Shown here one piece after another: positions 26,721-40,785 of a DNA stretch of 50,375 nucleotides (positions are counted from its first letter, which is position 1; each line of letters begins with the position of its first letter). The DNA is from Candidatus Zixiibacteriota bacterium (lineage in GTDB: Bacteria > Zixibacteria > MSB-5A5 > GN15 > FEB-12): positions 1 through 50,375 of the forward strand of contig JBFMDV010000016.1 in assembly GCA_040753875.1 (NCBI GenBank), in the 5' to 3' direction. The translations under genes and the position numbers were made by a program. The notes under the pieces are model-generated. The model did not search any database and had not been told where the DNA came from. It was given only the letters and a program-made list of their open reading frames with translations.

Positions 26721-27188
26721 TTTGAAGGGCGCGAGACTTTTCCTCATCGCCAGCCCGTTAGCGCCATCGGCGTAATAGCCCGGCAAATCCCCAGTGATTT
26801 GGTAACCGAACCGCTTGTACAATCCGATCGCCGCCTTGTTGTCGGCACGGACTTCGAGCGAAATGGTCCTGCAGCCACGCTTGATGGCAGCTTGCTCGCA
26901 GGCGGTCAGCAAGAATGCCCCAAGCCCCTTGCCACGAATACGCCCATCAATGGCGATTGAAAAGAGCCTTCCGACTCTGGACCCCTTTCGCCAGAGCATG
27001 AATGCAGAACCCACCAGTCTCCCCTCAAGATCAAGCGCGAGCGGTGTGCAGTTCGCTTTGGTCAGAAGATAACGGAGTTGCGCGCGGGTGAAGCGGTCCT
27101 CACCGAAACAGTCGGCCTCAAGTTGTTCGATTCGGGGAAGGTCAGCCAGTGTGGCCGGTCGGATAGTTGGCTCGGAACCGGGGGTCAT
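26718..27188 (-). CDS. GNAT-family N-acetyltransferase (RimI-like)
   Basis: A 156-residue acetyl-CoA-dependent transferase. The acetyl-CoA loop reads IRGKGLGAFLLTACEQAAIKRG, and EVRADNKAAIGLYKRFGY is the usual C-terminal GNAT motif. The ATG at 27188 overlaps the stop of the ATP-grasp gene (ATGA), so the two are translationally coupled; the longer upstream frame is only a shadow of that gene. Genes pairing RLAN/RimK-type ATP-grasp ligases with a GNAT enzyme are known from comparative genomics as predicted amide-ligase modules. The substrate may be an amino group on a peptide or small molecule. Confidence 0.85.
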   Translation of the reverse strand: MTPGSEPTIRPATLADLPRIEQLEADCFGEDRFTRAQLRYLLTKANCTPLALDLEGRLVGSAFMLWRKGSRVGRLFSIAIDGRIRGKGLGAFLLTACEQAAIKRGCRTISLEVRADNKAAIGLYKRFGYQITGDLPGYYADGANGLAMRKSLAPFK

Positions 27189-28069
27189 CCCCACTCGCCG
27201 ACCAGATAGCGGATAAGCCGGTCGTACACCTGCGGCGTGCCGTGGTCTTCCTCGCCGGCATTGATGGTCGGGTTGTCGTTCACCTCGATCACCACAAAGT
27301 CGTCCTCGACCTGCTTGATATCGACACCATAGAGCCCGTTGCCAATCGCCGCGGCGGCCTGCACCGCTACTTCCATCAAGCGCGGGTTCACTTTGGCGGT
27401 ATCGAATGTCCTCACTCGTCCCCAGATGACTCGTCCGCCTTCGGTGTAAGTGAGCACTTTCCAGCGCCGTTTGGGAATCAGGTACTGGCAGACATAGAGC
27501 ACTTCGCCGCCGAGCACGCCGACCCGCCAGTCGAATTCGGAACTGACAAACCGCTGTACCACGATGCGGTCGGCCCGTCTGAGGAAGCGTTTCCCCACGC
27601 GGACAAAATCCTCCGGCGTGGCGACCCGGTCCACATACATAGAGAAGCTTGAGTTGGGCGCTTTGAGCACCAGCGGCGTGCCGAGGGTATCGAGCAGGCG
27701 CGAGCCGTTCTGGAGAGTCAGGTCGCTTTCGGCCAGGAACAATGTCTCCGGCATCGGCACGCGCGCCGCTTGCAGGTGGCGATACATGTTGATCTTGTCG
27801 CAGCATACCACGATTGAGTTGGGATCATCAATCACTCTCAGCCCATTGCTTTCGGCGAGCCGCGCCGCCACATAGGATGAGTTCAGCGGGTCGGTCAACG
27901 CCCGAATAAACAGGGCATCGTACGAGGGAATCTTGTACATGTCCGCCCGAAAGAGGACGTCCAGTCGATGTCCCATCTTCTGGGCCGCCTGGCCGAGCCG
28001 CAGCACCGCGCCCATCTCTTCGGAGCGGGTCATGGTGTACCGCTCGATGAATACGCCTATGTTCGCCAT
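27185..28069 (-). CDS. RimK-like ATP-grasp amide ligase
   Basis: A 294-residue protein starting MANIGVFIERYTMTRSEEM. The ATP-grasp fold is seen in CCDKINMYRHLQAARVPMPETLFL, LGTPLVLKAPNSSFSMYVDR (nucleotide-binding lysine) and IQ-type strand VVQRFVSSEFDWRVGVLGG. The metal-binding end reads GVDIKQVEDDFVVIEVNDNPTI (Glu and Asn). Such enzymes join a carboxylate, via an acyl phosphate, to an amine, for example adding glutamate to a peptide end. It overlaps the RLAN protein by 13 bp upstream and the GNAT by 4 bp downstream. In most genomes the RLAN and ATP-grasp parts are one protein; here they are two. Confidence 0.85.
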   Translation of the reverse strand: MANIGVFIERYTMTRSEEMGAVLRLGQAAQKMGHRLDVLFRADMYKIPSYDALFIRALTDPLNSSYVAARLAESNGLRVIDDPNSIVVCCDKINMYRHLQAARVPMPETLFLAESDLTLQNGSRLLDTLGTPLVLKAPNSSFSMYVDRVATPEDFVRVGKRFLRRADRIVVQRFVSSEFDWRVGVLGGEVLYVCQYLIPKRRWKVLTYTEGGRVIWGRVRTFDTAKVNPRLMEVAVQAAAAIGNGLYGVDIKQVEDDFVVIEVNDNPTINAGEEDHGTPQVYDRLIRYLVGEWG

Positions 28070-28719
28070 GTGACTGCTTTTCTGATGTAGGCAAGCTCGC
28101 GCTCGGACAAACGGGAGAACGGCAGTGGCTGAATGCCGCTGAGCAAGATCTCGCTCTCGTGCGTGATAATAACGCGCACACGCGACACCGGGATACGATA
28201 AAGATTCCAGACTGCCGAGGCGAGTGCCCGAAATCGCGGCACCGGGCTGAACCCCAGGATCGCGCGGAAATAACTGAGTTTGGCGCGGTGAGGAAATTCC
28301 TGGCAGCAGACGGCATAGGTGAAATTGCGCGTCAGCGACTTGGCGATCCGCTCCTGTGCGGTCGCTTTGTAGACAAGGCTGTGGCGCGACATGAACGGAT
28401 TGACAGTATCCACCAGCACCGGAGGTTCGAAGTAACCGTTGGAAATATAGAAATTCGGGACCGGCAGCCCGGCCGCTTTGGCTTTCTCCAAAAAGAGCGG
28501 CATCACGTAGGCATCCATAATCTCTTGACAGGTGGGATGGACGGTGTGGCCGGTCGTTTCGAGGTCCTGTGAGCCGTAATAACCCAGTTTCATGTACCGG
28601 TAGTCGCCGGCCATGTTGACAATGCAGTCCTCGCCGTTGAGATAGCCGACGGGAATCCCTCGAAGGTCCGGTGGGGTGACCTGCGGCGGGGCGATCACTC
28701 GCTCGATGACCGGTCTCAT
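28057..28719 (-). CDS. RLAN-type (RimK-like ATP-grasp N-terminal) domain protein
   Basis: A 220-residue protein starting at ATG behind GGGGGAGGAG. The segment CIVNMAGDYRYMKLGYYGSQ matches the pattern of the RLAN domain (xxNLCRSYRYQSLGYYVSL type). The C-terminal RALASAVWNLYRIPVSRVRV with SGIQPLPFSRLSERE matches its second half. RLAN normally precedes a RimK-type ATP-grasp domain in a single protein; here the ATP-grasp gene follows with a 13-bp overlap, so this is a natural split. The domain's job is not known. It may bind the substrate of the ligase. Confidence 0.7.
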   Translation of the reverse strand: MRPVIERVIAPPQVTPPDLRGIPVGYLNGEDCIVNMAGDYRYMKLGYYGSQDLETTGHTVHPTCQEIMDAYVMPLFLEKAKAAGLPVPNFYISNGYFEPPVLVDTVNPFMSRHSLVYKATAQERIAKSLTRNFTYAVCCQEFPHRAKLSYFRAILGFSPVPRFRALASAVWNLYRIPVSRVRVIITHESEILLSGIQPLPFSRLSERELAYIRKAVTWRT

Positions 28720-29323: not shown

Positions 29324-31081
29324 TCAAAGGAGCATTTGCTTCCGCGCCAGTTCCCGGTACAGCAGGCAGCGACCGGTGAGCTCATCATGCGTCCCCTGGT
29401 CGACGATCCGGCCATCGTCAAGGGCGATGATGCGATCGACGTGCTGAATCGTTGCAAGCCGGTGGGCGATGATGATGGCGGTCTTGTCCGCCAGCACGTG
29501 CGAAAGCGACTCCTGGATCAACTGCTCGGAATTGGAGTCGAGGGCCGAGGTGGCCTCGTCAAGGATGAGCACGGTCGGATTCTTGAGAATGGCCCGCGCC
29601 AGACAGAGCCGCTGCCGTTCCCCTCCGGAGACGGTTACCCCGCGCTCGCCAACTTCAGTCCGATACCCCTGCGGGAGCTCCATGATGAACTCGTGGATAT
29701 TGGCGGCTTTGGCAGCGGCGATGACATCGGCCTCGATGGCTTCGGGAAAGCCATAGGCAATATTGTCATAGATGCTCATCCGGAACAGGAACGGGTCCTG
29801 TTCCACCAGCGCAATATGCCTGCGGAGCGAGACAAAGGAGAGATTGCGTACATCTATGCCGTCGAGGCAGACGCTTCCGTGCTGCGGGTCAAAAAAGCGC
29901 ATGAGCAGGTTGATGATGGTCGTCTTTCCCGAACCGGAGGGACCCACCAAAGCTATTTTCTCCCGCGGTCGCACGACCAACGACAGACCATCCAGCCCGA
30001 ATCCCTGGTCGCCGTAAGAAAACGCGACCGAATCGAAGCGGATCTCCCCGCGCGGCTTCTCCAGATGAACCGGCGTTGGCGATTCAACGATATCGGCTGG
30101 GATATCGAGGTACTCAAATACCCGATCGGCCGAAGCCATCGCCGACTGCACCTGGATATGTGTCTCGGCCAGCCCCCGGACGGGCGCGTAGAGATAGGTG
30201 AGCAGAATGTAGAACGCGATCAGCTCTCCCAGTTTCATGCCGCCGGTCGCCACCAGATAGACTCCCCATGCCAAAACCACAATGGGTCCGACCATATTGA
30301 TGAACTGTACGAGATTCACACCGAGCGACGTCGTCTTGCTCACGTTGACGATCAAAGGGTTTATCCGGTTCTGGATAGCTTCCACGCGACTCTCTTCATG
30401 GCGTTCCCGGCCAAATGCCTTAATGGTCTTTACGCCCAGCATCGCCTCCTGCAGCCGAGCCGATAGTTCCGCAATTGTCTGTTGCATGGTCGTCACGAGG
30501 CGGTTCAGGCGCAGACCGAACCGATGGGTGGCGTATATGGTGAGTGGAACGGGTACGACCGCGACCAGTGTGAGGAACCAGTTCGTATGCAGCAAATAGG
30601 CCATAATGCCGACCAGCATCAGCAGGTTGGTCAGAAACATGAGAAGCGTGACGGTGAGCAGGTCCTGAAGACGGCCGACATCGGACAACAGACGCGACAT
30701 GATCTCGCCGGTCTGATGCCGGCTGTGGAACTGAAGCGACAGCCGCTGCACGTGGCCGAACAGTTCCAGCCGAATATCCCTGATGATCGCCACCCCGATA
30801 TACGCCCCCAGATAATCCCGCAACCACGCGAACAGAACATCGAGGAGATAAATACCGAACAGGAATGAGCCGAACAAAAATACGGGTGTGTAGTCAACCG
30901 CCTCCCCTGCGGATGCCACCAGGCCGGGGATCAGCGAGTCGATCATGTATTGTATCGCGCCGGGCAGAGCCAGGCTGAGCCCGGTCAACACGACCATGAT
31001 CACGAACATGAGCGCTTCGTAGCGCCAGTACGGCCTAAGATACGACCAGAGTCTTCTTAGCTTCCGCGTATCGAGGATCAT
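29324..31081 (-). CDS. ABC exporter, fused membrane and ATPase domains
   Basis: A 585-residue half-transporter of the MsbA/peptide exporter type. Six transmembrane helices lie in the first roughly 320 residues. The ATPase domain follows with Walker A GPSGSGKTTI, signature VSGGERQRL, Walker B VLILDEATSALD and switch IIAHRLATI. There is no N-terminal C39 peptidase, so leader removal, if any, is done elsewhere. I chose the ATG at 31081; the longer frame only overlaps the radical SAM gene. It overlaps that gene by 47 bp, so it is translated together with the radical SAM enzymes and is the probable exporter of their product. Confidence 0.88.
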   Translation of the reverse strand: MILDTRKLRRLWSYLRPYWRYEALMFVIMVVLTGLSLALPGAIQYMIDSLIPGLVASAGEAVDYTPVFLFGSFLFGIYLLDVLFAWLRDYLGAYIGVAIIRDIRLELFGHVQRLSLQFHSRHQTGEIMSRLLSDVGRLQDLLTVTLLMFLTNLLMLVGIMAYLLHTNWFLTLVAVVPVPLTIYATHRFGLRLNRLVTTMQQTIAELSARLQEAMLGVKTIKAFGRERHEESRVEAIQNRINPLIVNVSKTTSLGVNLVQFINMVGPIVVLAWGVYLVATGGMKLGELIAFYILLTYLYAPVRGLAETHIQVQSAMASADRVFEYLDIPADIVESPTPVHLEKPRGEIRFDSVAFSYGDQGFGLDGLSLVVRPREKIALVGPSGSGKTTIINLLMRFFDPQHGSVCLDGIDVRNLSFVSLRRHIALVEQDPFLFRMSIYDNIAYGFPEAIEADVIAAAKAANIHEFIMELPQGYRTEVGERGVTVSGGERQRLCLARAILKNPTVLILDEATSALDSNSEQLIQESLSHVLADKTAIIIAHRLATIQHVDRIIALDDGRIVDQGTHDELTGRCLLYRELARKQMLL

Positions 31082-32498
31082 CCTGCCACTCCGGGCTGTA
31101 TTTGAGGGCGGCAAAGGCGAAGGCACGGGGCGCCAGACACTCCTGCATCCGCCGTTTTCGCAACGCGGCCATCCGCTCCCACAGGTCCACATTGGCGCCG
31201 TCCAGATCGCTCGAAGGAACTGATGCCTGCGACGCTGCCGTCTGGTCACTATCAGCACGCCACCACTCTGAACTCAGAAAACGGCTGCCGAAGGTTGTTT
31301 CAAAAAAGGTGCGGTTGCGATCTATCTCGCAGCCGGGGAAGTCCAGAAAACCGTAGTACGCCCACATGAGATACGAACGGTCAATGGCCAGCCGCTCATC
31401 AATGAACGCAAAGGTCTCTTCCAGCGTGGCACGGGTCTCGCCCGGGTGATTGAAGATCATGTTGGCGCGATGCAGAATGCCATGTTGGTTCAGAAGGTCG
31501 CTGACATGCCGGAATCGTTCGAGATACTTTTCCGGCCGCTTTGTCTTATGCATAAGGCCGAGCATTTGGGGGGAGGCGCTCTCGAGGCCGAACTGAATCT
31601 CCAGCCTGGGTAACCGGGCGAGGAGTTCTATATCGTCATCATCCAGATACTCCGCGCGCGTCTCAAATACGATCCAGAACGGCGGCGCGTACTCAGCCAA
31701 AAGACGCAGAAACTCCTTCCGCCAGCCGGGTCGCATACCGAAACAGGCATCGGCAAACGCAATCGCATGCGGTTTGTGTCGCTCCGCCCCGACGACGATC
31801 TCGCGCATCGCGTGCTCCGGCGAATAGGCCCGCCAGCCCCCTTCCTTGAGGGATTCCATGCAGAACGAACACCGGAACGGACAGCCTCGAGACAGAAATA
31901 GATACAGATTGGAAAGCCCAGTTGAAAAATGCCTGTTCACAAAATGATCGATCGTGTCCCAGTCGTGTCCCACCAGTTCGTCAGGCGCCAGCGATCTTCC
32001 CGCAACAACCGAAGTGTGATCGGGACACCCGGTTAACGAATACCGTTCGGCGAGTTCCCCAAGAGCGATCTCCCCCTCGCCGACCACCACGTAGTCTATC
32101 AGGTTATCCGGCGTCAGGAAGTCCTTCGGTCGTGCGGAGGGATGGTAGCCTCCCACAACGATCAATCTGTCCGGATATAGTTCGCGAAAGATCCGCGCAC
32201 AGGCCATCGTGGCCGTGAACGAAAGACTGGTCCAACAGGATATCGCCAGAATATCGAAGGGGTGGCGCTCGAAATATTCGCGCACATGTCGTTCGTAGCG
32301 CCGGATCTGAGCCGGGGAGCAGGGTCGGCCGACGCTGACCTCGAAATCCTCATAGGTGACCTCAAACCGCTCGGCCAGATACGACGCCAGAAGCAGCAAC
32401 GGGGTTTTGATCTCGATGGGAGGCCCTTCCGACGGCGTATAGAAAGTCGACGGATGCAGCAGCAGAATCGATGGAGTTGCGGCCATAGTGCCGGTCAC
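31035..32498 (-). CDS. B12-binding-type radical SAM enzyme (RiPP methyltransferase-like)
   Basis: 487 residues from the GTG at 32498; an ATG four codons later is an alternative. The N-terminal about 180 residues have a cobalamin-binding-like Rossmann layout (SILLLHPSTFYTP, IVVGGYHPSARPKDFL, DYVVVGEGE). They are followed by the radical SAM motif SRGCPFRCSFCMESL, whose CxxxCxxC holds the [4Fe-4S] cluster. The C-terminal region is unrecognised (YLMWAYYGFLDFPGCEID). Relatives methylate unactivated carbons or rearrange peptides in RiPP pathways. Its position, 52 bp behind one SPASM enzyme and overlapping the exporter, makes a peptide substrate likely. Confidence 0.82.
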   Translation of the reverse strand: MTGTMAATPSILLLHPSTFYTPSEGPPIEIKTPLLLLASYLAERFEVTYEDFEVSVGRPCSPAQIRRYERHVREYFERHPFDILAISCWTSLSFTATMACARIFRELYPDRLIVVGGYHPSARPKDFLTPDNLIDYVVVGEGEIALGELAERYSLTGCPDHTSVVAGRSLAPDELVGHDWDTIDHFVNRHFSTGLSNLYLFLSRGCPFRCSFCMESLKEGGWRAYSPEHAMREIVVGAERHKPHAIAFADACFGMRPGWRKEFLRLLAEYAPPFWIVFETRAEYLDDDDIELLARLPRLEIQFGLESASPQMLGLMHKTKRPEKYLERFRHVSDLLNQHGILHRANMIFNHPGETRATLEETFAFIDERLAIDRSYLMWAYYGFLDFPGCEIDRNRTFFETTFGSRFLSSEWWRADSDQTAASQASVPSSDLDGANVDLWERMAALRKRRMQECLAPRAFAFAALKYSPEWQDDPRYAEAKKTLVVS

Positions 32499-32550: not shown

Positions 32551-33663
32551 TCACACGGCCGCTTTACCCTTTATCTCATTCGGGAAATAGCGCTCCAGCA
32601 TCTCCGTAACGAGATTCGGCTCCGGCGCGGATATTCCTGCAGCCTGCTCCATCCGGTAGATGCAGTACGGATTGTCGGCGCGGCAGCCGGTGGCCGACAC
32701 CGAAGTCGTGGCGCAACCACCTCGGCACAGCGGCAGGTAGCGGCAATCGTGGCATGCCCCCGATGCGGTCTCGCGCGTGAACTTGCGGTTATAAGCGAAG
32801 CCGTTCGGGTTGTTCCATATCTCCGTGAAGGACTTTTTGCGGATATTCCCTTCCACGAACTCCTCCGGCATGGACAGGCAGCCTTTGACATCACCATTGG
32901 ACTCGATACCGGCAATTCGCACACCGGCGTAACATCCGGCATACGGCGTGTCGTCAAGTAAGGCGTTCCCCTTGCACCCGTAGTAACCGATATTCTCGCC
33001 TACGTCGACGGTGATATCCGTAGCCTTCTTGAGCTCAAGACATTTATCGATCAGTTTGGGATAATTATCGAGAGACAACACCAGGTCTTTGTGGCTTTTC
33101 ATCCGGCCGGTCGAAGTACACATCTGAATGCGCCACACCTTGCAGCCGAGATCCACCAGTATGGCATGCAGCGGGTCCAGTTCCTCCAGGTTGATATTGG
33201 ACACCTGGGTCAGAGCGCAGAAACGCACGCCGGCCTCGCGCATATACCTCATGGCGTCGGTGGCACGGGCAAAGCTGTCGTCACGCTGGCGAATGTAATT
33301 ATGCACCGGCTCGGTGCCGTCGAGACTCACCCCGACATGATTGAACTGAAGCGCCGCCAGATTGCGGGCGATCTCCGGTGTGAGGGCGTAACCGTTGGTC
33401 ACCATGTACAGGCGCGCCCCCTTGTCCTTCACTCGTGCCGCCAGCTGCCGCCAATCGTCACGCATGAGCGGCTCACCTCCGGACAGCGTGATCGACTCAC
33501 ACCCCAGCCCGGTCAATTCGTCGATGAGATTCAGTGCCTCCTGCGTGGACAGCTCGTCGGGGCGCCGCTTGCCGGCCGATGTGCCGCAATGGATACAGCG
33601 CATGTTGCAGGCGAAGGTGATCTCCCAAACCACGGTGTGTGGGAAGAAATGAAAATCGCTCAT
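32551..33663 (-). CDS. radical SAM/SPASM peptide maturase 2
   Basis: A 370-residue enzyme starting MSDFHFFPHTVVWEITFACN; the cluster motif CNMRCIHC falls at residues 19-26. The GGEPLM motif for S-adenosylmethionine binding is present. The C-terminal SPASM domain carries many cysteines for auxiliary iron-sulfur clusters: GCYAGVRIAG, DVKGCLSMP, CHDCRYLPLCRGGC and a final CRADNPYC. SPASM enzymes of this type form thioether, C-C or other crosslinks in peptides. The start at 33663 overlaps the preceding SPASM gene by 4 bp (ATGA), so the two enzymes are coupled. Confidence 0.88.
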   Translation of the reverse strand: MSDFHFFPHTVVWEITFACNMRCIHCGTSAGKRRPDELSTQEALNLIDELTGLGCESITLSGGEPLMRDDWRQLAARVKDKGARLYMVTNGYALTPEIARNLAALQFNHVGVSLDGTEPVHNYIRQRDDSFARATDAMRYMREAGVRFCALTQVSNINLEELDPLHAILVDLGCKVWRIQMCTSTGRMKSHKDLVLSLDNYPKLIDKCLELKKATDITVDVGENIGYYGCKGNALLDDTPYAGCYAGVRIAGIESNGDVKGCLSMPEEFVEGNIRKKSFTEIWNNPNGFAYNRKFTRETASGACHDCRYLPLCRGGCATTSVSATGCRADNPYCIYRMEQAAGISAPEPNLVTEMLERYFPNEIKGKAAV

Positions 33664-35024
33664 ACGGACTCCTTGGTTGCTGGGGTCGGGGTCCCCTGTC
33701 GTGCCATCTGCTGCTGCCGCGAACGCGCGATCACTTCCAGCATCGGGGCAAGGTTGAATTTCCAACTATCGCAATATTCCTCCGCAGGCAATGCCCGGTC
33801 TGACCTGCGTGCGGGACATCCTCCCATGCACACTGGCAGAATAGAACAATCTCGACAGGATTTCTCTTCAAACGGATCAAAACTAAACAATCGCAGGAAC
33901 TCCGCGTGCCGGTAGTCGATATCGCGCGCGATGTTCCCCATCGACTTCGATTTGTCTCCCGCGTAATTGAAACAGCGATACATGTCGCCGTCCGGGTCGA
34001 TCAGAAACGAATTGGTCAACTGTGCGAAACAGAAATTCATGATCGGTCCAGGGAGCTTCTCGATCCGGAATCCCTGGTTCAACAGCTCGTGCGACAATGT
34101 CAACTCGGTCTGCGAGTAGCTCCGTGTCTCGAAGCAGTGCTCCGAGATATTGGCGCAGGCGGCGGTCGCCGGCTCAATCATACCGAAATAGACGCCCACC
34201 CTGTCCCTCAAACCGGCGGCGGTGAGTTCATCGGTCATCCCCCGGATCATCTCCGGCGTGAAACTCTGATCGATATTCACACGCACGGAAATTGTCATCT
34301 TCTCGACCGCGTACTGGAGGTTGCGGATAATAGTCTCAAAGCTCACCTTGCCGTTTTTGAGGGGGCGTTTTCGGTCGTGAATTTCCGAGGGACCGTCCAG
34401 TGTCACCTGCACCTGAGACACGCGAAGTGACACGAGACGATCCACCGTCTCCGGCGACAACAGGTAGCCGTTGGAGATCATCGAAGCTGCGTATGCGAAC
34501 TTGTGCTCGCGGGCAAGGTCGAACACCGATTGGGTGATGTCATCGATGATATCAAGGGCCAGAAGCGGCTCGCCGCCGTACCATGAGATCTGGAGGTCCT
34601 TGAGTTTGGGCGCCTGCCGTTCGATGAAGCCGATCAGCGATTCCACCACGCGGGACGACATCCGACCGGATTTGTTGCCTTCGAAACAGTACTGGCAGGC
34701 CATGTTGCAGGCCATGGTCGGCGCGATGACGAGTCCGAGCGACGAAGTCTCCTGCCGGGCCCGCCGATATCGGAATTTCAGCCAGGCAAACTGATCGTCA
34801 ACGTCATCATACACGAATCGGCCATGGCGAAGCTGCTCGAGCAGCTCCGACTCCTGAGCTGTGAACGATGCGGCCCCATTGGCGGCCAGCTTGTCGACCA
34901 GAAGCTGATAGGTGGCGTAGTTTTCTGCCGTCATCATGGCCACGGCGCCCGTGTAGGCGTTGAAAGCCAGGTAATAGTCTTCCCGGTATGGAAAGAAATG
35001 ATTGTAGGGCGAAAGCCGCGTCAT
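33660..35024 (-). CDS. radical SAM/SPASM peptide maturase 1
   Basis: A 454-residue enzyme; GAGG lies six bases before the ATG at 35024. Residues about 1-90 form an extra N-terminal domain (SPYNHFFPYREDYYLAFNAY onward) of the size and kind seen in peptide-maturing SPASM enzymes. It may act as a leader-binding (RRE-like) part; this is inference. The cluster motif APTMACNMACQYCFEG is at about residues 103-117. WYGGEPLL follows, and the SPASM cysteines are in MYRCFNYAG, CRDCSILPVCMGGCPA and EEYCDSW. It is the first enzyme gene behind the two precursor peptide genes, from which it is separated by a small hairpin. Confidence 0.88.
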   Translation of the reverse strand: MTRLSPYNHFFPYREDYYLAFNAYTGAVAMMTAENYATYQLLVDKLAANGAASFTAQESELLEQLRHGRFVYDDVDDQFAWLKFRYRRARQETSSLGLVIAPTMACNMACQYCFEGNKSGRMSSRVVESLIGFIERQAPKLKDLQISWYGGEPLLALDIIDDITQSVFDLAREHKFAYAASMISNGYLLSPETVDRLVSLRVSQVQVTLDGPSEIHDRKRPLKNGKVSFETIIRNLQYAVEKMTISVRVNIDQSFTPEMIRGMTDELTAAGLRDRVGVYFGMIEPATAACANISEHCFETRSYSQTELTLSHELLNQGFRIEKLPGPIMNFCFAQLTNSFLIDPDGDMYRCFNYAGDKSKSMGNIARDIDYRHAEFLRLFSFDPFEEKSCRDCSILPVCMGGCPARRSDRALPAEEYCDSWKFNLAPMLEVIARSRQQQMARQGTPTPATKESV

Positions 35025-35053
35025 CACACACCTCTATACCATGCGTTTTGAAC

Positions 35054-35089: not shown

Positions 35090-35200
35090 TCAGGCCGGCT
35101 CGCCCGGAACACCGTACAGCGGCTTGATCCTGCAGAACGTCGTGCAGAACGCCGTGCAAGGGGGTTTCGCTGCCAGTTCGGGGTCGATCAAGTAGATCAT
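35090..35200 (-). CDS. putative RiPP precursor peptide, 36 residues, three cysteines
   Basis: A short gene with a perfect ribosome site (AAAGGAGG, 5-6 bases before ATG). The product begins MIYLIDPELAAKPP, continues CTAFCTTFC at residues 15-23, and ends RIKPLYGVPGEPA. The first seven residues are identical to those of the peptide coded just upstream, the CTxF-C core is shared with it, and so is the PLYGVP end. A conserved leader start, Cys residues in a C-x3-C-x3-C pattern and neighbouring SPASM enzymes are what one expects of a peptide that gets radical-made crosslinks. There is no double-glycine cleavage site. I do not recognise the family. Confidence 0.82.
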   Translation of the reverse strand: MIYLIDPELAAKPPCTAFCTTFCRIKPLYGVPGEPA

Positions 35201-35212
35201 GTTACCTCCTTT

Positions 35213-35226
35213 AACGGTTTACCGTT
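35213..35226 (-). promoter_or_regulatory. small palindrome just before the second precursor ribosome site
   Basis: AACGGT-AA-ACCGTT, perfect, directly in front of AAAGGAGG. It could be an mRNA stem affecting the ratio of the two peptides. Confidence 0.3.
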
Positions 35227-35238
35227 TCGCAGCGCCGA

Positions 35239-35334
35239 TCAGATCGGCACGCCATAAAGCGGAAACGCTACTCCCTTGCAGAACCTGGTGCAAACCTCCA
35301 ACTGGGCCTTGACCGGGTCGATCAAATAAATCAC
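35239..35334 (-). CDS. putative RiPP precursor peptide, 31 residues, two cysteines
   Basis: A GTG-start gene with AAGGAGG eight to nine bases upstream. The product begins MIYLIDPVKAQLEV, has CTRFC at residues 15-19, and ends KGVAFPLYGVPI. Aligned with the downstream peptide, the leader start, both first cysteines (positions 15 and 19 in each), the Thr and Phe between them, and PLYGVP are kept, while the rest differs. This is the pattern of paralogous precursors under selection at leader and modification sites. Intergenic spacing to the second peptide gene is 38 bp. The LYG in both ends is the kind of motif acted on by tyramine-excising radical SAM spliceases, though this is only a parallel. 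Confidence 0.8.
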   Translation of the reverse strand: MIYLIDPVKAQLEVCTRFCKGVAFPLYGVPI

Positions 35335-35603
35335 AGCAGTCACCTCCTTACGCGTTTAGGGGTTGTGTGTAGTGGGACATTACCTGTACCATGTGCTGGT
35401 ACTTCACCGTCACGTCTGCTCACATTCACAAAAAGGGTATGCCGGGCCGGCGGGCTGAGCGTCAGGTTCAAGAGGATGACTGAAGGATACCCACAATCGT
35501 CACTTGTGCCAGCATCCGCCTGGCCCCGTTTGCCCGGACTATCGAGCGTGCCTGTGCTGCTTTCAGGCTGAGAACTGCCCGATCATGATTCTCTCTTGCT
35601 CAA
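35335..35603 (-). other. about 260-base 5' untranslated region of the peptide operon
   Basis: Between the predicted promoter and the first peptide gene. It includes a 7-codon frame (MIGQFSA) behind AAGAGAG at its start. A GC-rich near-palindrome (about 35443-35455) lies ahead of a five-U run (about 35431-35435), which could be an attenuator. A GTACC-AGCACAT-GGTAC stem is also present (35386-35402). No known riboswitch class was recognised. Confidence 0.35.
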
Positions 35604-35820: not shown

Positions 35821-38800
35821 CTACGAAACGGGGGACGGCGAAGAGAGCAGACTGCGGATGGTTCGTTCAATTTCGTGGGCCAGAAGCGGTGTTCGTACAA
35901 CAGCGCTGCACGGCAGAAGCAATGTGGTGCCATCAAACAACATCTGCGGATTCTCGGCTGCCACAACGACAGGAATATCGGGCCGCAGACGATGGAGATC
36001 GTCAAGAATGGTCTCGGCGTTATCAACAATCATCCGGTAGTGGACCAGCAGCAGTTGGAAAGACCGAGCCCTGTCCCGCAAGCGCTCCGCAGCCTCAGAG
36101 GTATCGACGCACACCGTGACCCGGCAACCGGCCCGCTCGAGTGTCCAGGATGCCGCTTCCGCTTCCGATGCCTCACCATCGATCAGAAGCACGCTGACGG
36201 AACCGGATCCGTCTTTTTCGGACCATGCCGCCGCACGGGGACTGCACGCCGGGAGATAGATATGGAATTCGCTCCCCTTGCCCGGTTCGCTCTCCGCACA
36301 AATGTGCCCGCCATGCTGTGTGATGATGCCGTGACTCACGGCCAATCCCAGACCCGACGCTTCGCCGCCTGCTTTGGTCGTGAAGAACGGGTCGAATATC
36401 CGTTTGAGCGTTTGACGGTCCATGCCTCGGCCGGTATCCCGGACGCTCAGATGCAGGTGCGGACCCGGCAGACTCCGGTGACACGACTGGCAGCGGCCTT
36501 TGTCGGCGGATGGTCCGGAGAGTGCGAGTGTGAAACTTCCGTCCGCCTCCATGGCATCGGCTGAGTTGAAGGCGAGATTGAGGAGCACTTGCTGTAACTG
36601 CCCGGCATCGGCCAGCACCGATGGAGCCAGCTCGCCATGCTCGAAGGTCACAACCACGCGAGTAGGAAGGACCGAACGCAGCCTTGCGAGTGTTTCCACG
36701 ATAATGTTCTCCAGTTGGACAACCTGCCGCTCTCCGACCTGCTGTCGGCTGAACGCCAATATCTGCGCCACCAGGTCGCGCGCCCGGTAGCTCGCCTTGA
36801 GCACTTCGTGGAGACGTTCGGCCGGTGCGCTACCTGCCACGAGGTCCTCGAGGGTCATTTCGGTATACCCGATGACCGGCACGAGCATGTTGTTGAAATC
36901 ATGGGCGATCCCCGCCGCCAGTGTGCCGATCGTCTCGAGTCGCTGCGCTCGCCGCAACTGCTCTTCCAGGGCCGACTTCTCCCGGTCGATCCGCTTCCTC
37001 TCGGTGATATCCGCTACGATCACCTGTGCCACCGGCCTGCCATTGAGCGAATTCCGCGCCGCACGACTTTCGATTTCAACCACCGTGCCATCGAACCGCA
37101 GCAGCCGGTGCTCGTGAGGCGGCAGTTCGGCCTCGCCGTCGACAGCGGCGCGAATATGTTCGGACACTTCAGCGCGACAATCCGGGTGCACCAGATCGGC
37201 GAACCGGCGGCCGACCAGACCGGTCGCATCCGGCGCGCCCAGCATGCACGCCAGCGCCCTGTTGGCAAACAGAATTCCGCCGTCGACAATGACGGCTACA
37301 CCAAGGGGCGAAAGCTCCACCAGGCTTCGGTATCGTTCTTCAGAGGCTGCCAGCGCCTGCTGCGCCTGACGCTGCTCCGTGATATCGATGAACACGCAAT
37401 GCGTCTGGAGTAATTGACCGAGGTCATTGTACCCGACCTTGCCGTTGAACGATACCAGCCGGGTATTGCCATGCTTGCACACCATCTCGAATTCGACCCC
37501 GACTACGACGCCCGCTGACTTGAACTGATCGAAGGTATGGCGAAACTTCTCCGCGCACGCCGGGGTGAGAAAATCGCCAAACCAGCGTCCCAGGACATCC
37601 TCTCTGGAGTATCCCAGTGTGGTGAGCCAGGTTTCGTTAACTTCCAGGATGTGGCCCGACTCATCGAGCGATTGATACGCTATCGGCGCCCGCTGGAACA
37701 ACTGGCGAAACTTGGCTTCGCTCTGCACCAGGGCCTCCGTGGTTCTGAGCCGCTCTTCCTCGGCGCCGATTGCAGCGGCAAGGATCCCCAGAATAGTCGT
37801 GTCGGCGTTGGTCAGATCCGCGCTCTGCGTATACACGACGCACAGCGAACCTACCACCTGTTCGCCACACCGAACCGGATAACCTGAATAGGTCTTGAGA
37901 CCATATTTGGCCACGTTGGGATCGCTTTGCTGATAGACTGTGGCCGACAGGTCGCGAATGAGAAGTGGCTCCGTCGACCCGGATCGGATAACATCATAGC
38001 AGATGTGGCCGTCCGGCTGGTCCACCGGATTATAATCCGGGGGCGTGTGCCATTGGCCGACCGAGTAGAGCATATTGCCGACCAGACGGTTGTACAAGGC
38101 GCAATCGGCGTGCAGAAGCTCTCCGCACAGCGCCGTAATGGCACTGATATTGGCCGAAGGGCTTGATTCGAGATGCAGCAGGGTCTCGTTGATACGCAGG
38201 AGACGTTCTTCCGCGCGGTGTCGCTCGGTGACATCGTGAAAACTCCAAACTCGGCCAACGCTCACACCCGCGATCGACTGCGGTTTCGATGAGCGTTCGA
38301 ATACACGACCATCTTTGAAGCGGAGTACGTCAAAGCTCTCCGTAGTCGGAGAATCGTACAGTTCGCGAACCTTGGCCAGGAACTGTTCCGGCTCGGAAAG
38401 CTGACTGAGGACGAAATCCAGCAGTTGATGATCATCGCGTGTAGCCAATAGCGTGTCCGATATCCGCCACATCTTCTGGAAACGCTGGTTGCAGATAACC
38501 ACCCGGCCACTGCGGTCAACCACCAAAATACCGGTGGCGGTCGATTCCAGGGTGGCCTGAAGGAGCGACAGGGATGATTCCAGATCCGCCCGGATTTTTC
38601 GCATATCGGTGATATCGATGCCGGTCGCAACATAGCCGATACATTCGCCGCTCGCTTCTATTCGTGGCGCCGCCCTGAGGAGCAGCCGACGGTACTCCCC
38701 GTCGTAACGGCGCAAACGAACCTCTGCCTCCACCGAGAGCGGACGACCCGGATCGGCCGAGAGTCTGGTCTTGAGCAGTTCTCGGTCTTCTTCGTGAATC

Positions 38801-40785
38801 CCTTCGAGCCATTGCCGGCCCAACTCTTGTTCGGAACGTCGGCCACGGAACTCCAGCCATGTAGTGTTGAAGAACACCGCCTCACCCGCGCTGTCGGTCA
38901 CCCAGATCAGAGCCGGGGCCGAATCGGCCATCGTGCGGAACCTCGACTCACTTTCACGAACGGCCTCATCCTGGCTCCGTTCGGCGGTCACGTCGCGCCC
39001 CATGCAGATTATCTGAGGGGGCATCCCTGCTGTGTCGGGCAAGGACGACAGGTTCCAGCTCACCAATCGCAGTGCACCATCACCTGTCCACAGTCGATGT
39101 TCTAGACTGCCAACCGGTTTGCCGCGCAGAGCATGCGTGAATGCCGTGCGGACATCATCCTGGCACGTTTCCGGTACGAAGGCTGTGACGAATTCAGTCC
39201 CAATGGCCTCACTCCGCAGACGCCCAGTCAGTCGCTCGGCTGCCTGGTTCCATTCGACCACGCGAAGCTCACTGTCCAGTCCCATAATGATGCTTCCGGC
39301 TGTGCTGATTACCAGCCGATACCGCTCCAGACTCAACCGTAACGCCCGCTCCGCCCGTCGCAGTTCGGTCACGTCGGCGCCGATCGCCCACGAATACCAG
39401 CCCGGGATAGGGACCCAGGCAGAGACATTTGACCACAAGATAGTCCGAACCGATCCGTCCTTGCACGTGATATGCACTTCCCGGTCGCGGTAGTTGCCGC
39501 GGTCTTTCTTCCACAGCTCCCGTACCTCTTGCCGATAAGCCGGGTCGGGGAACAACCGCTCTTGCGGGGCGGGGTCGGCAGTCATTTCGGCGCTCGTATA
39601 ACCGGTGACTCGTTCGCACTCCTTGTTCCAGACCAGCACTCGTTGTTCAGCGGACATAGCCGCCATCATGACCGGCATATATTCAAGCACCGCCCGCAGA
39701 CAGCGTTCGCTTTCCTCGATCTGGCGCTCTGCCTGGCGGCGATAGGAGATATCCTGTGCGGCGATGATTCCGGTGAGGCGGCCCCGGTACTGCAGGGCCC
39801 GAAGCCGAACTTCCACCTCGATGACAGACCCGTCCTTGCGCAGACACCGGTATTCGTGAGGGGTGCCGTCAGGATTCTGATAGCGGGACATCGCAATCTC
39901 ACGATCTTCCGGCGCCACGAAATCGGCAAAATGTCTCCCCCGGGCCTCGTCCAGCGTGTATCCGAACATCCGGCATGCCTGCTCGTTGGCTTCCACCACG
40001 CGGCCATCTTCGACCAGCACGATCGCTTCAAATGCGGCCGAAGCCAGCGCCTGACATCGCTCCCGGCTGTCGAGCAATTCCTGGCGACGTTTGAGCCGCT
40101 CGGTCACGTCGCGCGAAATACCAACCGAGCCGGTGAGTCGACCCTGCGCATCCAGCAACGGCGATATGGTCAACTCGATCGGGACAAGCCGACCGTTTCG
40201 ATCGCTGACAGTGAACTCCTTCTGGAATGTTCCCCCGTGCGCGAGAGTCTCACGAATCTCTGTCTGAAGCCCTTCATCCTGCCCGGCAAACAGCAGATCG
40301 GACACGTATCGGCCGACCGCCTCTTCAGATGTCCAGCCATACATTTCCTCAGCACCCTCGTTCCAAAACGTCACGACGCCGATCTTGTCGACTGCGATGA
40401 CCGCCTGCGGTATCGCCGATAGCAACGCAGATTGCCGCGAGGCGGCGCGATCGCTTCCGCTATTCCTGGTTAATGAGGTGGCCGATGGTCGGTTGGCAGG
40501 ATTGGCGGGCAGAATCAGGCTGCCCAAAGTTGCTGCCGCAACGGCAAGCAAGGCCAACAGCATCGCTACCACCGCCTGGATATCATTGTGAGTGACAAAG
40601 CTATACAATGCGGCTGCTTGTAAGAGACTGGCGACCAGAAGACCGGCAATCGGGAGCCACCGAAGCGACCGCCAGCCAAAAGCGTGACTTCTTCGGATCA
40701 GGATGTAACCGGACGCGGCGGTTAACGCCATGGCCAGCAGATAAACGGCGACCTGGAGGATCGGACTCACGGCCCGGAGTTCCAC
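35821..40785 (-). CDS. multi-PAS/GAF hybrid histidine kinase with degenerate receiver
   Basis: 1654 residues. Three membrane helices lie at the N-terminus (about 10-110). Six PAS/PAC units cover about 115-860, a GAF-type domain about 870-1020 (ALYNRLVGNMLYSVGQW), and two further PAS units about 1030-1275. The HisKA box is IAHDFNNMLVPVIGY, with the phosphorylated His. The ATPase has LNLAFNSADAM, DTGRGMDR and GLGLAVSHGI; it carries a CQSCH pair just before DTGRG, a CxxC variant seen in some such kinases rather than a heme site. The C-terminal receiver reads LLIDGE and QLLLVHYRM: the phosphoacceptor Asp is replaced by His and the usual Lys is gone, so it cannot accept phosphate. No response regulator gene is adjacent. 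It is upstream of the peptide operon on the same strand. Confidence 0.9.
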   Translation of the reverse strand: MELRAVSPILQVAVYLLAMALTAASGYILIRRSHAFGWRSLRWLPIAGLLVASLLQAAALYSFVTHNDIQAVVAMLLALLAVAAATLGSLILPANPANRPSATSLTRNSGSDRAASRQSALLSAIPQAVIAVDKIGVVTFWNEGAEEMYGWTSEEAVGRYVSDLLFAGQDEGLQTEIRETLAHGGTFQKEFTVSDRNGRLVPIELTISPLLDAQGRLTGSVGISRDVTERLKRRQELLDSRERCQALASAAFEAIVLVEDGRVVEANEQACRMFGYTLDEARGRHFADFVAPEDREIAMSRYQNPDGTPHEYRCLRKDGSVIEVEVRLRALQYRGRLTGIIAAQDISYRRQAERQIEESERCLRAVLEYMPVMMAAMSAEQRVLVWNKECERVTGYTSAEMTADPAPQERLFPDPAYRQEVRELWKKDRGNYRDREVHITCKDGSVRTILWSNVSAWVPIPGWYSWAIGADVTELRRAERALRLSLERYRLVISTAGSIIMGLDSELRVVEWNQAAERLTGRLRSEAIGTEFVTAFVPETCQDDVRTAFTHALRGKPVGSLEHRLWTGDGALRLVSWNLSSLPDTAGMPPQIICMGRDVTAERSQDEAVRESESRFRTMADSAPALIWVTDSAGEAVFFNTTWLEFRGRRSEQELGRQWLEGIHEEDRELLKTRLSADPGRPLSVEAEVRLRRYDGEYRRLLLRAAPRIEASGECIGYVATGIDITDMRKIRADLESSLSLLQATLESTATGILVVDRSGRVVICNQRFQKMWRISDTLLATRDDHQLLDFVLSQLSEPEQFLAKVRELYDSPTTESFDVLRFKDGRVFERSSKPQSIAGVSVGRVWSFHDVTERHRAEERLLRINETLLHLESSPSANISAITALCGELLHADCALYNRLVGNMLYSVGQWHTPPDYNPVDQPDGHICYDVIRSGSTEPLLIRDLSATVYQQSDPNVAKYGLKTYSGYPVRCGEQVVGSLCVVYTQSADLTNADTTILGILAAAIGAEEERLRTTEALVQSEAKFRQLFQRAPIAYQSLDESGHILEVNETWLTTLGYSREDVLGRWFGDFLTPACAEKFRHTFDQFKSAGVVVGVEFEMVCKHGNTRLVSFNGKVGYNDLGQLLQTHCVFIDITEQRQAQQALAASEERYRSLVELSPLGVAVIVDGGILFANRALACMLGAPDATGLVGRRFADLVHPDCRAEVSEHIRAAVDGEAELPPHEHRLLRFDGTVVEIESRAARNSLNGRPVAQVIVADITERKRIDREKSALEEQLRRAQRLETIGTLAAGIAHDFNNMLVPVIGYTEMTLEDLVAGSAPAERLHEVLKASYRARDLVAQILAFSRQQVGERQVVQLENIIVETLARLRSVLPTRVVVTFEHGELAPSVLADAGQLQQVLLNLAFNSADAMEADGSFTLALSGPSADKGRCQSCHRSLPGPHLHLSVRDTGRGMDRQTLKRIFDPFFTTKAGGEASGLGLAVSHGIITQHGGHICAESEPGKGSEFHIYLPACSPRAAAWSEKDGSGSVSVLLIDGEASEAEAASWTLERAGCRVTVCVDTSEAAERLRDRARSFQLLLVHYRMIVDNAETILDDLHRLRPDIPVVVAAENPQMLFDGTTLLLPCSAVVRTPLLAHEIERTIRSLLSSPSPVS

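Follow-up and report, generated by a model that had tools for sequence, protein, structure and literature searches.

The window studied here (the whole stretch of 50,375 nucleotides, contig JBFMDV010000016.1 of assembly GCA_040753875.1, from a Candidatus Zixiibacteriota bacterium) contains two short ORFs, A1 and A2, with two SPASM radical SAM genes, E1 and E2, directly downstream. Both peptides carry the residues LYG near the C-terminus. The question that this locus raises is what becomes of this LYG, and which of the two enzymes acts on it. The initial annotation had taken the motif as a hint at radical splicing or tyrosine modification, with one SPASM enzyme acting on the cysteines and the other on LYG.

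Precursor peptides and their operon

Both precursor ORFs were confirmed on the minus strand, and both show the leader and the motif of the peptide family described below. A1 (35090..35200, minus strand; 36 residues) reads MIYLIDPELAAKPPCTAFCTTFCRIKPLYGVPGEPA and starts with ATG, with AAAGGAGGTAAC immediately 5', and A2 (35239..35334, minus strand; 31 residues) reads MIYLIDPVKAQLEVCTRFCKGVAFPLYGVPI and starts with GTG. A strong Shine-Dalgarno sequence (GGAGG) was seen at both. For A2, we preferred the start at 35334 over the mechanical call at 35343, since GGAGG lies 8 bases upstream of the former and a start at 35343 would overlap it; 35334 was also the end given for A2 in the initial annotation.

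The PLYGVP motif, with LYG as the proposed splice site, lies at 35105..35122 in A1 (codons CCG CTG TAC GGT GTT CCG) and at 35245..35262 in A2 (codons CCG CTT TAT GGC GTG CCG), both on the minus strand and with coordinates counted from the start codon. As four of the six codons differ synonymously between A1 and A2, the motif is kept at the protein level, and a DNA-level pattern search for it failed because of these codon differences. Reading both ORFs bore out the earlier observations that P-L-Y-G-V-P is present in both peptides and that the spacing from core to motif differs by two residues, the distance from the last Cys to Leu being 5 residues in one peptide and 7 in the other. The leader is only about 7 residues long (MIYLIDP). 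A search of NCBIfam with nine precursors returned no family, and none was found in Pfam either; the YLIDP leader itself resembles no NCBIfam precursor family.

We observed E2 homologues (58-68% identity) in 21 of 60 related genomes, and each locus read also had an E1 homologue directly upstream. When 84,980 named species genomes were scanned, 28 loci were obtained, one of them a spurious Nocardioides match; nearly all belonged to Candidatus Zixiibacteriota, while others carried the label Calditrichaeota (one), Ignavibacterium (one) or a generic label (a few). About 40 clusters of this kind were found, and the operon family occurs almost only in Candidatus Zixiibacteriota.

The gene order precursors-E1-E2-(B12 radical SAM)-ABC exporter is common to most loci. 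The optional B12-binding radical SAM enzyme (31035..32498, minus strand), identified from Pfam B12-binding and Radical_SAM matches and from synteny, is a possible methyltransferase that occurs at roughly half of the loci. The ABC exporter (29324..31081, minus strand, ATG at 31081; Pfam ABC_membrane and ABC_tran) has membrane and ATPase domains without a peptidase domain, and most loci that extend far enough to show it have it downstream. Positions 27185-28719 hold a RimK-like ATP-grasp enzyme with its N-terminal RLAN domain on a separate ORF, and this split recurs beside the cluster in a related locus, L034 (85% and 64% identity). Upstream of the cluster, a 1654-aa ORF (35821-40785) was read as a multi-PAS histidine kinase; pieces matching it (about 53%) are also found upstream of the L034 cluster.

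Peptides of the family were picked from the loci with E2 homologues solely for their leader, [YF]-[LIVM]-[IVL]-[DE]-P close to the start. This gave 66 distinct peptides from Zixiibacteriota loci, and P-[L/M/C]-Y-G-[V/I/L] was present in 60 of them. The residue before the Tyr (X of XYG) was Leu in 40, Met in 10 and Cys in 10, and Pro occupied position -2 of the motif in all 60. Shuffled peptides of preserved composition contained YG in 8.9 cases on average (maximum 21). The frequency of the motif among leader-selected peptides exceeds chance, although the peptides are related by descent and there are fewer independent events than these counts suggest. All codons for Tyr (TAC 38, TAT 22) and for Gly (GGC 25, GGT 18, GGA 9, GGG 8) occur across the family. 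Pairwise identity in the stretch from leader to motif has a median of 19%, so that the leader and the motif are the conserved parts. The Tyr is internal in all 60 motif peptides, with Gly and at least three further residues behind it. The six remaining peptides comprise two with P-x-Y-S (PLYSIPP, KPIYSTP) and four with no motif. The family precursors have 31-48 aa and 1-5 Cys, often as C-x3-C-x3-C. Cys is the X residue in 9 of 31 peptides where the locus has the B12 enzyme and in 1 of 25 where it does not, an excess that may only reflect kinship.

The two SPASM enzymes

E1 (33660..35027, minus strand; 455 aa) is the proposed thioether former on the cysteines. Its best NCBIfam scores (Clo7bot 316 bits, cut-off 600; TIGR04463 298, cut-off 525; PapB 152, cut-off 340) were all below the cut-offs, as were those of the geopeptide and CefB models that were also among the best. 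The CX3CX2C motif and the seven SPASM cysteines are invariant in 26 homologues. In the structure model (pLDDT 83.8), we read the N-terminus as RRE-like, with a set of strands leading into three helices. The best Foldseek match was CteB (5why/5wgg), over the full length (E 3e-19, TM 0.64-0.70). CteB is a thioether former, and PapB joins Cys to Asp or Glu (PMC9413430). E1 probably links cysteines.

E2 (32551..33666, minus strand; 371 aa), the gene of which overlaps that of E1 by ATGA, is the proposed splicease on LYG, as suggested by NCBIfam matches, the tree, shared residues and the structure model (pLDDT 87.5). The cysteines of its CX3CX2C motif (C20, C24 and C27) and of its seven-cysteine SPASM region (C245, C263, C305, C308, C314, C318 and C335) are invariant in 24 homologues. 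Its best NCBIfam matches were TIGR03913 (253 bits, cut-off 592) and TIGR04103 (234 bits, cut-off 725), both far below cut-off, and 24 of 24 homologues matched these two models. We take TIGR04103 and IPR026482 to be the same family. TIGR04103 is the 'nif11-class peptide radical SAM maturase 3', and PlpX has been assigned to IPR026482 (PMC11002830); PlpX has the substrate sites MYG and LYG, from which C8H9NO is removed (PMC10533398). A TIGR04103 score alone is not diagnostic, since radical SAM proteins with no clear XYG peptide beside them also match, with scores close to that of E2 or above it (L112 with 239 bits, L117 with 203 bits). No TIGR04103 member above the cut-off turned up when 132 genomes of the phylum were scanned. 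When E2 was searched against the PDB by sequence and by fold, PqqE, SkfB and SuiB were nearest, with no splicease structure among the matches listed.

The splicing proposal had been made to depend on at least one of the two enzymes standing near the spliceases in a tree. In a tree of 58 proteins, E2 fell into a group (95/85) that also holds the TIGR04103 enzyme of Nostoc, four enzymes of the TIGR03913 type, one from Agathobacter and two from Zixiibacteriota, and the proposal survives on this point. IGYYG, WxxQ and GIExxGxxKGC are common to E2 and the splicease group, and rare in outgroups. In a reduced tree, the branch order of E2, the spliceases, Agathobacter, L112, L117 and a TIGR04133-like group was not settled, and a single clade of E2 with the spliceases was neither established nor rejected (p-AU 0.22). 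The hint of splicing at LYG is thus supported in part. E2 lies outside, although adjoining, the TIGR04103 and TIGR03913 clade (100/99 in the 58-protein tree), and the operon contains no PlpY-like small RRE gene, for which the spacing from E1 through E2 to the B12 enzyme leaves no room. The RRE-like N-terminus of E1 may replace such a partner.

We also looked at the genes beside those of E2's relatives. In Nostoc, the TIGR04103 gene adjoins a Nif11 precursor ending GSIALYGLPPELF (IALYGLPPELF). The DUF1843 peptides beside TIGR03913-type genes contain RMLYGGAM, IKPYGVAI, VRPYGPAM and IIQPYGAG, along with the variant sites RPMYMATM, PMYAAS and VLYAAG. Splicease-group enzymes adjoin these XYG peptides without any E1. 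Upstream of the Agathobacter homologue lies a 68-aa candidate ORF with PVMYGTG (a weak case), and no clear XYG peptide was found near L112 or L117. The 68-aa ORF (L092:5698-5904) is unannotated, ends FGPVMYGTGVRM, and adjoins the radical SAM and MFS transporter genes of Agathobacter rectalis; it might encode the precursor of a spliceotide in a gut bacterium.

E2 might instead alter the Tyr of LYG in some other way (a cross-link, a cyclophane or C-O link, side-chain scission or a decarboxylation-type reaction), without excision of tyramine. MftC and PqqE, which are related SPASM enzymes, perform other Tyr chemistry, E2 falls outside the characterised splicease families, and the wider E2 group includes TIGR04133-like enzymes of unknown function. 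However, in its X residues (L, M) and its -YG[VI]P surroundings the site is of the splicease-substrate type, as in the Nostoc LYGLPP. A clade of E2 with MftC was rejected (p-AU 0.0002), which disfavours MftC-like chemistry, and the Tyr of MftA is C-terminal, unlike the internal Tyr of the 60 peptides, which is not part of a C-terminal Val-Tyr of the mycofactocin type. We regard such other Tyr chemistry as unlikely, though it deserves to be kept in view.

Which enzyme the motif follows

An E1 profile was run over 132 genomes of the phylum, and its matches fell into two tiers. One is the E1 family, which goes together with E2; the other is an E1' family, 28-38% identical to E1, whose usual partner is a different enzyme, E2', at other loci. 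P[LMC]YG was counted in sense frames at most 2 kb upstream of E1. We observed it at 37 of 39 E1-family loci versus 0 of 18 paralogous E1'/E2' loci of the phylum (Fisher p 6e-13, with relatedness ignored). The two E1-family loci without an upstream motif were L025, an E1-E2 pair, and L040, with E1 alone. L040 (11211-12569) is the only E1 copy without an E2 neighbour, and its peptides read YLYAWP and YLYAFP, with no YG. The motif therefore follows E2, as seen from the difference between the two sets of loci and from its absence at the E2-less L040, and these sequence comparisons make E2, and not E1, the likely splicease. The division of labour suggested in the initial annotation gains support here, since XYG follows E2 and E1 resembles thioether formers. 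With E1 alone and its two peptides (MDYLVDPKNFETSLTCCTPQGCYLYAWPWPQCPPVGG and MDYLIDPKNFETSLTCCTPQGCYLYAFPCLAR, within L040:11211-13158), L040 constitutes a natural single-enzyme control.

The genome studied here also holds a paralogous E1'/E2' pair (G000:C23:67811-70188, L133), as do many relatives. At some of the relatives' E1'/E2' loci there are short Cys peptides (for example MKLITLPQMEIVGKPNLCISKCPLFIICKNYK) that lack YG and have leaders like MKLITLPQ. The E1'/E2' pair looks like a separate RiPP family.

PXYG could also be an unmodified recognition or follower motif for E2 or for the exporter, with E2 modifying, for example, a cysteine or the preceding residue. Its near-fixed C-terminal place and near-invariance are those of recognition signals, and the E1'/E2' pairs work without it. 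However, the differing precursors beside the E2 group (Nif11, DUF1843 and perhaps Agathobacter) have nothing but the XYG-like site in common, and at different ends, so that a shared product site is the simpler explanation; we find an unmodified motif improbable. That E1 alone serves both the cysteines and LYG, with another role for E2, is very improbable, for although the RRE-like domain belongs to E1 and the E1 gene directly precedes that of E2, YG is missing both at L040 and with the E1-type paralogues, and splicease-group enzymes lie beside XYG peptides without an E1.

Proposed pathway and comparison with known systems

On balance, we favour reading the cluster as a hybrid ranthipeptide-spliceotide RiPP operon, in which E1 would form thioethers and E2 would excise tyramine. 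The RRE-like fold of E1 probably binds the short MIYLIDP leader, and thioether links would be formed by E1 from the variable cysteines. E2 would act at P-[L/M/C]-Y-G, excising the tyramine part of the Tyr as PlpX does at LYG and MYG; an alpha-keto-beta-amino unit would be left, which at LYG would be a Leu-derived ketoamide before Gly. We infer this order of the two chemistries. The B12 enzyme may add a methylation, the product would be exported and, if known spliceotides are a guide, may act as a protease inhibitor. More tentatively, the clusters could represent a phylum-wide hybrid class with thioether rings and a ketoamide, exported and sometimes methylated, and made by a new PlpY-free splicease subfamily that uses a leader of about 7 residues and accepts CYG.

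If this is true, E2 would represent a deeply separate splicease subfamily with very small substrates (31-48 aa), combined with thioether macrocyclisation. We found no studied RiPP for the phylum Zixiibacteriota. Ketoamides are protease-inhibitor warheads, and a ketoamide peptide constrained by rings would be that inhibitor design in natural form. The contrast between E1 with E2 and E1 alone offers a ready basis for assigning each step to an enzyme. Tyramine splicing is also a protein-labelling tool, for which more processive enzymes and shorter tags would help (PMC10533398).

Among known systems, the maturases of CteB/SCIFF, PapB, Clo7bot (CtpM) and TIGR04463 gave the best scores with E1, and Cys-containing precursors are common to both, although E1 scores under all the cut-offs of these thioether-type enzymes. 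The paralogous E1'/E2' pairs (e.g. G000:C23, L133-L150) have the same gene pairing, and several have short-leader Cys peptides; however, the one E2' sampled (L121) lies elsewhere in the tree than E2, and P[LMC]YG is absent upstream in the 18 loci.

TIGR03913/DUF1843 (with the GDL motif) is the best NCBIfam match of E2, and the DUF1843 peptides have LYG, PYG, MYM or MYA. However, E2 is below the cut-off and the precursors here match no DUF1843. The site in DUF1843 is at the N-terminus, and the TIGR03913 enzyme has a C-terminal extension that is absent from E2.

As in PlpXY (Pleurocapsa; TIGR04103/IPR026482), a SPASM radical SAM enzyme lies beside precursors with LYG or MYG, and IGYYG and KGC are common to both; the LYG[LV]PP surroundings are common to the Nostoc TIGR04103 relative. 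The PlpXY leaders are of the Nif11 or nitrile-hydratase type, in contrast to the leader of about 7 residues here. E2 scores 234 of 725 bits, is 33% identical to the Nostoc member and has no PlpY-like gene beside it, and, unlike PlpXY, the present system combines its XYG site with cysteines and a second SPASM enzyme.
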